DNA from: Candidatus Saccharibacteria bacterium HGW-Saccharibacteria-1
GTDB lineage: Bacteria > Patescibacteriota > Saccharimonadia > Saccharimonadales > Saccharimonadaceae
Direction: 5' to 3'
DNA: 64,000 nt
Assembly (NCBI GenBank): GCA_002839415.1
Contig: PGXZ01000006.1
Location: forward strand, 1-64,000
Below are positions 4,848-45,529 of the stretch, piece after piece. The notes under the pieces were generated by a model. The model searched no databases. It was not told the origin of the DNA and saw only the letters and a program-made list of their open reading frames with translations. The first letter of the stretch is position 1. Every line of letters begins with the position of its first letter. A program made the position numbers and the translations under genes.

Positions 4848-6551
4848 TTACGGATTGAAAATTGTAGTCATGGTCGCTGAAGGGGATGTTACGGTTGCAG
4901 AGGGAGAATTAACGGTTGGCGATGCTCCATTTACCGTTGCTACAGGAGTTGTTAAAACTACACTCGGCGACGACACCGAAGCTGCTGGAGATTTACAAGT
5001 CGGCGACAAACAGTTATTCACAGCTCCATCAGGTTTAAATTTTATAATAAAGGCATCATCGTTACCGACGCCGTAGCTATCCGTGTTTCCGAGCGACACA
5101 AAACCACCATCACCTGTTTGAATAACGTTATGACTTGCGTTAACCCTATCGGAACCAGAAATTCCCCATGTTTTATTCCACAACAAAACACCATTTGAAT
5201 TATACCTTAAGATAAACATGTCATGAGAGCCAACAGCATAACTATCCGTGTAGCCCGTTACCACATATCCTCCATCACTAGTCTGAATAACCGACCTGCC
5301 CTCTTCGGCCGACGAACCACCCCATGTATTACTCCAAACCAAGCCCCCATTCGAGTCAAATTTTGCAATATACGAATCTAATGATCCCGCGCCATAACTT
5401 CTTGTGTATCCAGTCAGAATACAGCCACCATCATTCGACCAAGTTAGCCCATATCCAACGTCGTCAGATGCCCCACCCCAGGTTTTATTCCAGACAAAAT
5501 TCCCGCTTGAATCAAATTTTACCAATAGGGCGTCTTCACCTCCGTTGCCGAAGCTCTTAGTAAGTCCAGATACCAAATACCCACCGTCGCTTGTTTGATA
5601 AAGATCGCGACCATACTCAATATCAGCGCCGCCCCAAACCTTAACCCAAGACAGATTTCCATCACTGTCATATTTTGACAAAAACAAGTCTGATATTCCT
5701 GCATCAAAATTATTGGTATAGCCAGTTACGGCAACTCCGCCATCAGACGTTGCAGTTATACTCCGACTATAGTCTCCGTTTACTCCACCCCAAGTTTTGC
5801 TCCAGACAATATTTCCGTTTTCATCAAATTTTACCAAGAAAACATCACTGCTTCCAGCACCATAGCTACTTGTTTGGCCAGTTACTATATAACGACCATC
5901 GCTAGTCTGCACGACATCCCTTGCAACATCACTACCTGTACCACCCCAGGTCTTATTCCAAGCTAGATCGCCCGCTGCATTATATTTAGAAATATACATG
6001 TCAATGCCTCCAGCACCAAAGCTTGTTGTCGAGCCGGTAGTCACAAAGCCACCATCTTGCGTTTGAAAAATACTATATGCGTCCTCCACCCCAGAACCGC
6101 CCCAAGTTTTTGCAAAACTTCCAAAAGTACTAACAACCACCTGGCCGGTTGAGTTAGTATTTCTATACAAGATTCCTCCTCCGCTTATATCAAAGCTGTA
6201 GCTCAAATATGGCGGAATTGAACGATAAAGAGGCGCATTACCAGGGCTAGTTTTTAAACAATAACTCGTTGACACTTCGCCATATTCGTTTTTTGGACAG
6301 TTGTTACTGTCATATCCTGCTGGGTATTTTCCATTTTCGGCATAATATAACTTAACCTGATCAGACCCATTCTTTAAATCGCTAGCTACAGAAGCTTCTC
6401 TAGCCTTACCAGTTATGCCGACGTATGAAACTACTGTTATTGCCGCAAGTATACCTACAATAACCATAACAACAAGCAATTCTACAATAGTGAAGCCGTT
6501 AACATCGTTGGTTGAGATTTCTTTATTTTTTTGATTTAGACGCTTTTTCAC
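4848..6551 (-). CDS. prepilin-type protein with C-terminal seven-repeat beta-propeller-like domain
   Basis: 'GFTIVELLVVMVIVGILAAITVVSYVG' class III prepilin signal/TM; seven ~52-aa repeats 'KTWGG...QTSDGGYxVTGxTxSxGAGSxDxxLxKFDSxGNxVWN'; Ser/Thr/Pro-rich tail. Confidence 0.88.
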   Translation of the reverse strand: MKKRLNQKNKEISTNDVNGFTIVELLVVMVIVGILAAITVVSYVGITGKAREASVASDLKNGSDQVKLYYAENGKYPAGYDSNNCPKNEYGEVSTSYCLKTSPGNAPLYRSIPPYLSYSFDISGGGILYRNTNSTGQVVVSTFGSFAKTWGGSGVEDAYSIFQTQDGGFVTTGSTTSFGAGGIDMYISKYNAAGDLAWNKTWGGTGSDVARDVVQTSDGRYIVTGQTSSYGAGSSDVFLVKFDENGNIVWSKTWGGVNGDYSRSITATSDGGVAVTGYTNNFDAGISDLFLSKYDSDGNLSWVKVWGGADIEYGRDLYQTSDGGYLVSGLTKSFGNGGEDALLVKFDSSGNFVWNKTWGGASDDVGYGLTWSNDGGCILTGYTRSYGAGSLDSYIAKFDSNGGLVWSNTWGGSSAEEGRSVIQTSDGGYVVTGYTDSYAVGSHDMFILRYNSNGVLLWNKTWGISGSDRVNASHNVIQTGDGGFVSLGNTDSYGVGNDDAFIIKFKPDGAVNNCLSPTCKSPAASVSSPSVVLTTPVATVNGASPTVNSPSATVTSPSATMTTIFNP

Positions 6552-6612
6552 CAGTTAAATCCCTCTTTTTTGTTTTTAAATAAAGTTTATTTTAGCTAAG
6601 TATACTTTATTT

Positions 6613-25815: not shown

Positions 25816-25856
25816 ACCTTCATTCTTACATGCACAAATATTCGCTAGCTAATAAC

Positions 25857-25957
25857 TTATTATTTATATTTCTGAAACATCTGCAGCCAGCGTCATACAA
25901 GGCGCCGGGGCCCTTGAATGACCCAGCGCGAAGCCGTTTTAGGGATATAAAATAATG
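25857..25957. repeat. palindromic structured repeat, copy A (intergenic)
   Basis: Outer stem TATATTTCTGAAAC/GTTTTAGGGATATA; inner stem GTCATaCAAGG-cgccggggc-CCTTGaATGAC; shares AACATCTG, AAGGCGCCGGGGCCCTT and GAAGCCGTT with copy B. Confidence 0.75.
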
Positions 25958-25988
25958 AGATAATTAGACTCGACTCAAAATTAAAATT

Positions 25989-44344: not shown

Positions 44345-45529
44345 TTAAACAATAATTCCACCGCCCAAACAAACATCGCCATCATAAACTACAACTGATT
44401 GTCCGGTGGCAATTGCACGCTCGGGATTGATCAAATCTAGCATAATCAAGTCATTGTCATAAGATAATTTAGCCTCCGTCAGTGGCGCGCGATGACGAAC
44501 GCGAATCTGATAATTACCTTTATCTGGTTTATCATTTATCCAATGAATATTAGCAAGTTTGATTGACTTCTTCCACAAAGTATCATCATTCAGATCAGTT
44601 GTTACATATACTTCGTTTTTATCCATATCTTTACTGGCAACATAATACGGCAAACCACCACCAACATCCAAGCCATGCCGTTGACCAAGTGTATAAAAAA
44701 TCGCCCCATCATGTCGCCCCAAAACTTTGCCAGAGTTTTTATCAATAATTTCACCTGGTTTTGGGTCAATATACATACCCAAGAATTCACGAATCCCAAT
44801 TTGGCCGACAAAACAGATCCCTTGTGAATCCTTTTTAGCTGCCGTCGACAAACCACGCGCTAGCGCCATCTCTCGCACTACCGGTTTTGTAAATTCACCA
44901 ATCGGAAATAGCGTCCTACCAAGTGCCTCGCCCGTAACTCGATAAAGAAAATAAGTCTGGTCTTTATTCTTATCAACCGCCTGTAACAAAATACCAGCCT
45001 CGCCAGCCGATGATTTAATGGCGGCGTTCTCGGAACATCTGGAATCCGAGTTTGATAAGGCGCCGGGGCCCTTATCAAACCCGGCATGAAGCCGTTCTGA
45101 GATTGCCGCTATTGAATTATCGGATTCAGCCAAGCGCTTAACCCTAGCGTAATGCCCAGTCGCAATCATATCCGCCCCATCCTCAATCGCCGCCTCTAAA
45201 AAGAGTTTAAACTTGACCTCCTGATTACACATAACATCAGGATTTGGCGTGCGACCATTCCTATATTCATCAATCATATAATCAACAACTTTTTGCTTAT
45301 ACTGAGTTTCAAAATCAAAAACCTTAAAATCAATTCCTAATTTTACCGCCACGCGTTTAGCATCTGCCAAATCATCCGCCCACGGGCATTTCACACCAGG
45401 CAAATCACGTGACCAGTTTTTCATATAAACCCCAGTCACGTCGTAACCTTGTTCTACTAGCAGCGCCGCCGTCAAAGACGAATCAACACCACCACTCATA
45501 CCAACATAAACTTTTGTTTTTTGATTCAT
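44345..45529 (-). CDS. mnmA: tRNA-specific 2-thiouridylase MnmA with in-frame repeat insertion
   Basis: 'KVYVGMSGGVDSSLTAALLVEQGYDVTGVYMKNW', 'NPDVMCNQEVKFKLFLEAA', 'DKNKDQTYFLYRV', 'GICFVGQIGIREFL'. Extra ~40 aa between 'HYARVKRL' and 'LLQAVDKNKDQ'. Confidence 0.96.
   Translation of the reverse strand: MNQKTKVYVGMSGGVDSSLTAALLVEQGYDVTGVYMKNWSRDLPGVKCPWADDLADAKRVAVKLGIDFKVFDFETQYKQKVVDYMIDEYRNGRTPNPDVMCNQEVKFKLFLEAAIEDGADMIATGHYARVKRLAESDNSIAAISERLHAGFDKGPGALSNSDSRCSENAAIKSSAGEAGILLQAVDKNKDQTYFLYRVTGEALGRTLFPIGEFTKPVVREMALARGLSTAAKKDSQGICFVGQIGIREFLGMYIDPKPGEIIDKNSGKVLGRHDGAIFYTLGQRHGLDVGGGLPYYVASKDMDKNEVYVTTDLNDDTLWKKSIKLANIHWINDKPDKGNYQIRVRHRAPLTEAKLSYDNDLIMLDLINPERAIATGQSVVVYDGDVCLGGGIIV
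45014..45116. repeat. palindromic structured repeat, copy B (inside mnmA)
   Basis: Outer stem TTTAATGGCGGCGTTCTCGGAAC/GTTCTGAGATTGCCGCTATTGAA; inner perfect stem GTTTGATAAGG-cgccggggc-CCTTATCAAAC. Confidence 0.8.

Follow-up and report, generated by a model that had tools for sequence, protein, structure and literature searches.

The mnmA gene in the stretch of 64,000 nucleotides analysed here, which we call the window, contains a long inverted repeat within an intact reading frame, which raises the question of what this sequence is and how it came to lie there. To our knowledge, in-frame palindromic elements have for 25 years been known mainly from Rickettsia, with no mechanism described for them. 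A sequence-only reading of the window had described a mobile element of about 103 bp at 45014-45116, inside mnmA. An element is indeed present, but its extent is slightly longer, with boundaries at 45007-45123 set by a covariance model (R1). The features of the locus are:

44345-45529, - strand: mnmA (tRNA 2-thiouridine synthase), 394 aa, frame intact with the element inside
45007-45123, + strand: palindromic element, mnmA copy; model R1, 121.8 bits; DNA fold z = -5.3
45007-45033, + strand: left arm of the mnmA copy, locus-specific, pairing with 45097-45123
45034-45096, + strand: conserved core of the mnmA copy, AACATCTG...AAGGCGCCGGGGCCCTT...GAAGCCGTT, from alignments of 5 and 83 copies and pair counts
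45097-45123, + strand: right arm of the mnmA copy, locus-specific, on the same basis as the left arm

The mnmA copy is an imperfect palindrome of 117 nt whose element-sense strand (+) is antisense to the gene; none of 200 shuffled sequences folded equally well. The reading frame is open through the whole copy, and the predicted insert, SDNSIAAISERLHAGFDKGPGALSNSDSRCSENAAIKSSA, agrees with the extra MnmA loop quoted in the earlier reading. NCBIfam NF001138 matches the mnmA product at 412.5 bits, with the insert splitting the match, and matches to MnmA proteins in the PDB are interrupted at residues 133/181 of the window protein. With the insert, a loop of few residues in most relatives and in solved structures is about 45 residues longer (6 residues at the loop in solved structures, against 47 in the window protein). 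The sequence-only reading had put the E. coli loop at about 10 residues. Distant orthologues lack the insert, and alignment of orthologues revealed an empty site in most relatives, with the form GHYARV(E/K)(D/N)G(V/A/T)LxQAVDTNKDQTY.

The same architecture had been noted between genes, at 25857-25957. This proved to be a second copy with the same core, again of somewhat greater extent:

25827-25848, + strand: 5' flank of the second copy, partly common to other intergenic copies of the host genome (TTACAT...CGCTAG), from alignment with flanks
25849-25967, + strand: second copy, intergenic, flanked by genes for an ABC transporter (+) and an L25-like ribosomal protein (-); model R1, 106.4 bits
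25876-25938, + strand: core of the second copy, from exact motif matches

The sequence AAGGCGCCGGGGCCCTT occurs twice in 64 kb, where 0.06 occurrences are expected; the two window copies match beyond what chance would give. The host genome, a Saccharibacteria-type MAG of 1.10 Mb that is 98.9% complete, holds six copies in all, on contigs C16 (two), C6, C29, C26 and C13, and more were found in relatives. The 45 nt or so preceding three intergenic copies in genome G000 (L017, L018 and L020) are similar, TAAGAGTCGTTTGGTATTACATAATTACGCTAG; this similarity could represent a promoter for an element-strand RNA or a part of the mobile unit. The window also contains a lysM-TM7 RNA and, at 1166-1259 in the N-terminal region of an ORF (512-1291, - strand), a perfect inverted repeat of 20 bp around a 54-nt spacer, which lacks the core of the mnmA-copy family.

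Comparison of five copies yielded a consensus hairpin of 49 pairs (length 117-119 nt in the window copies), and for 22 of these pairs one or more of the five copies showed changes at both positions. Across 83 copies the covariation score was 0.489, compared with 0.188 in shuffles, none of 500 shuffles reaching the real value, and at most 0.126 for slid structures. The conserved core is about 60 nt long (AACATCTGCAGCC..stem-loop..GGCGCGAAGCCGTT). In the 83 copies from relatives it takes the form AACATCTGCAGCCCGAG-stem-loop-CCCGGCGCGAAGCCGTT; it includes an internal loop that is asymmetric and conserved, and an inner stem that varies freely in sequence while pairing is kept. The core is flanked by arms of about 25 bp (median 22 Watson-Crick pairs), which are locus-specific and mostly unrelated between copies, and which remain complementary through double substitutions. 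The sequence-only reading was thus correct that both stems stay paired, as the covariation indicates, but the outer stems of the two window copies, which it had compared, share no recognisable homology; only the core is common to them.

Model R1 matched 29 of 295 genomes of the order. With model R2, matches were obtained in 45 of 393 order genomes spanning 16 genera, and 44 of the 45 belong to one family, the sole exception (G107) giving a weak match; the number of matches per genome reached 11-12. In the rest of the phylum there were weak matches only in G595 and G656, and the four hairpins of G595, with the same flanking motif, represent a remote relative within the phylum. An exact motif scan of 380 genomes matched only G000, G124 and G595, with no matches for reversed-pattern controls. 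A core-pattern scan of 84,980 species genomes returned 47 stretches, mostly from Saccharibacteria or MAGs and none from Rickettsia; those in Arthrobacter, Chloroflexi and Bryobacteraceae show little arm pairing (5-8 pairs) and resemble chance matches. There were no matches in IMG/VR that would indicate viral carriage. Nothing on such elements in Saccharibacteria was found in the open-access literature, and as far as that literature was searched the family is undescribed in this lineage.

Among 99 copies examined, 38 lie in frame within ORFs of at least 200 aa, representing about 15 housekeeping protein families. Identified by eye from their sequences, these are MnmA, TopA, LeuRS, Dus, an RlmD/TrmA-type methyltransferase, DnaX, RNase HII, TlyA, CysRS, a TRM11-like protein, a UvrD-type helicase, MurC, SucC, TsaD and an ABC-F protein. 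The copies in ORFs are read in at least five translation frames and occur in both orientations. In alignments with insert-free orthologues from genome G147, made for 11 protein families, the filled proteins have an extra stretch whose position coincides with the hairpin. Essential genes appear to host the element without disruption of their frames. All nine copies of genus g10 are in ORFs, and those of genus g2 are mostly intergenic. A terminator or promoter role was considered and set aside, as the intergenic copies in G147 show no clear neighbour preference. At two loci (L036 and L087) the RNase HII is, by eye, apparently fused to a YraN-like C-terminal domain, with the element in the linker. 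Inverted side-by-side pairs of copies were seen at L058:1426-1661, L064:1539-1758, L270:1564-1774 and L272:1536-1745, and in G245 both copies of such a pair are predicted to be translated within one long MnmA loop.

A hairpin inside essential genes might instead be taken out as a splicing element before translation or skipped as a bypass element during it. Neither bypass nor splicing would need copies to be in frame and free of stops, as the ORF copies are, although the ORF criterion itself favours such copies. The insert-bearing mnmA genes listed likewise have no internal stops, except that of G671, with one TAG, and we consider removal of the insert extremely improbable.

Near-identical cores dispersed at unrelated sites, together with presence and absence between relatives, support mobility, and these comparisons suggest that the sequence is probably a non-autonomous mobile palindromic element working like a Rickettsia palindromic element (RPE). 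Neither a transposition event nor a target-site duplication was observed; the species-level genomes are too diverged for exact junctions, no filled and empty sites being close enough at the DNA level. A non-mobile origin would start from a loop that expanded long ago in a few proteins, the coding DNA of which template switching then made palindromic. Template switching does make and maintain hairpins (PMC8794818, PMC8604942), and the mnmA inserts of genus g1 look orthologous. Such an origin is nevertheless very improbable, given the same core of about 60 nt in some 15 unrelated genes as well as between genes, and its identity between the Dus and TlyA genes of G124. The inherited appearance of the g1 mnmA copies does suggest that some sites reflect descent and not repeated movement.

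The strand on which the element acts was investigated through G.U and A.C pairs, counted in the arms only (the conserved internal loop adds a fixed A.C mismatch to counts over all pairs). On the element strand G.U exceeded A.C by 143:55, or about 2.6:1, irrespective of the direction of the host gene: the ratios were 34:12 in sense ORF copies, 28:12 in antisense ORF copies and 81:31 in intergenic copies. The bias ends near the arm ends. It was also present in copies found without reference to the arms (27:6 and 62:23, the second set overlapping the first survey), and the complete genome alone gave 13:9, which is not significant. On the gene-sense strand of ORF copies there was no excess (45:37). 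Selection on host mRNA structure, from which a gene-strand excess is expected, was rejected on this count. A bias on the element strand whatever the gene direction points to a folded element strand rather than host mRNA, and the simplest reading is that the active form would be a folded single strand of fixed polarity, either DNA or RNA. Strand-specific deamination, rather than selection, could also generate the bias.

The strong covariation, for which the sequence-only reading had proposed a check, and the one-strand G.U excess are also what a functional structured RNA would show, that is a regulatory element, RNase III site or terminator selected in transcripts, with the ORF copies incidental. 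Some copies sit just 3' of stop codons, and the intergenic majority could have another role. This explanation is unlikely in view of the balanced gene-sense counts in ORF copies, the presence of both orientations in genes, the wholly different arms of different copies and the absence of any match to the curated covariance models of Rfam. The intergenic copies of G147, moreover, lie between convergent, divergent and tandem genes with no clear preference.

The mobile hairpin must also account for arms that are perfect yet locus-specific. When four orthologous mnmA inserts from a single genus were compared, 16 of the 30 arm pairs had changed on both sides and were still paired in some sequence, compared with 0-5 in slid controls. 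The Dus and TlyA copies of G124, with cores 100% identical, have arms only 44% identical. No match above chance length was found for an arm source elsewhere in the complete genome G147. Core orientation also changes: the LeuRS genes of G180 and G035, whose proteins are 94% identical, carry the core in opposite orientations at one site, as do the mnmA genes of G391 and G245. Template switching between inverted repeats is reported to homogenise the arms and invert the spacer (PMC8604942). We infer that replication template switching between the arms after insertion would homogenise them and sometimes invert the core, which would explain both the perfect, locus-specific arms and the orientation flips. 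At mnmA the arms are non-native, and their derivation by inverted duplication of the target was unsupported; the LeuRS arms include native codons, and inverted target duplication is possible there.

The MnmA loop, which has few residues in most genomes of the family, is a hot spot that receives inserts of more than one kind. Of 25 distinct mnmA inserts, 21 fold with z below -2, and empty loops do not; many of the long hairpin-type loops lack the core of the window element's family. A second, unrelated palindrome family of about 75-200 nt was found in genus g394, with one member in mnmA. Its members are in frame in mnmA, mutM, topA (twice in one protein), a pcrA/uvrD-type gene, ychF and uvrA, at the following loci:

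L334, L335, L337, L338, L340, L341, L343 and L344, genomes G664 and G682: second palindrome family of genus g394

In G113 the mnmA loop (L145) contains a GGTGGAA repeat opposed by a CCAAATT-type repeat, an insert of a different, partly palindromic kind.

The proposed mobile form would be a folded single strand of fixed polarity (single-stranded DNA or the element's own RNA) moved by some factor, and ORF copies would survive where entry falls in tolerant loops. A Y1_Tnp search and a scan of flanks revealed no transposase tracking the element. The element could be of REPIN type, moved by a REP-associated tyrosine transposase (RAYT, Y1_Tnp): it is palindromic and non-autonomous, 21 of the family's 121 genomes have Y1_Tnp genes, and by our own reading they seem commoner in genomes with mnmA hairpin inserts. 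This is quite improbable, as G000, G113, G035 and G124, all with copies, gave no Y1_Tnp match, and the hairpins neighbouring 26 Y1_Tnp loci never had the element core, several loci having short REP doublets of their own. Seven loci of the same Patescibacteria family (L310, L311, L315, L322, L324, L326 and L332) encode RAYT-like Y1 transposases with REP-type palindromes adjoining. More broadly, and tentatively, Saccharibacteria may host several unrelated families of palindromic parasites that have converged on the same loops, where essential genes tolerate them. These would move in the form of a strand-polar hairpin without a dedicated transposase, replication template switching writing new locus-specific arms around a travelling core; we regard this as possible rather than probable.

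RPEs are long stem-loops of about 105-150 bp, present in many copies and several families per lineage, both in intergenic DNA and in frame within unrelated housekeeping ORFs; their mobilising enzyme is not given in the reviews consulted (PMC2229807, PMC10969869). The Saccharibacteria element resembles them in size (117-119 nt and 49 pairs, within the range of palindromes of about 100-150 bp with a long stem-loop), in its multiplicity and in its in-frame insertion in conserved ORFs with empty orthologues. The likeness to RPEs proposed in the sequence-only reading holds for the way of working, in-frame palindromes of about 100 bp in housekeeping genes, but not for kinship: no common sequence was found, as judged with an exact core pattern over 84,980 species genomes. 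The Saccharibacteria element also differs in its conserved core and locus-specific arms, its use of at least five frames and both orientations in ORFs, and its G.U-biased element strand. By these comparisons Saccharibacteria carry a genuine family of in-frame palindromic elements that behaves like RPEs.

The MITEs ERIC, Correia/NEMIS and YPAL (PMC2229807) are likewise small, palindromic, intergenic and sometimes fused to ORFs in frame, but the Saccharibacteria element is conserved at its centre and not its ends; copies share no terminal inverted repeat, and many near-identical cores bear differing arms. It spreads through the genome as non-autonomous palindromes, as REPINs do (PMC3116915), but is longer, has an asymmetric conserved internal loop and is not beside the RAYT genes examined. 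Nematomorpha mitochondrial genes also keep inverted repeats in functional coding sequence (PMC6649704); both arms there encode conserved native residues, whereas the Saccharibacteria hairpin is mostly added sequence with a shared core. An integron attC site was rejected, having conserved ends (R''/R') and a variable centre, the reverse of the element.

The Saccharibacteria elements form a system that is independent of the one in Rickettsia and much larger. It spans dozens of genomes and some 15 protein families as hosts, offers empty sites as well as inverted copies, and comprises two or more unrelated families. Comparison can test how the element moves, given its travelling core, unique arms and strand bias, and the elements point to a route by which minimal symbiont genomes gain protein loops.

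Of the 18 copies on the G147 chromosome (tiles L218-L262), 16 fall in the interval 82-342 kb, in mixed orientations; GC skew, with its minimum near 0 and its maximum near 440 kb, places them in a single replichore. Two G147 copies, at L061:1511-1628 and 6485-6601, are directly upstream of rnpB and tmRNA; Rickettsia RPEs have been reported within the rnpB and tmRNA genes themselves (PMC2229807).
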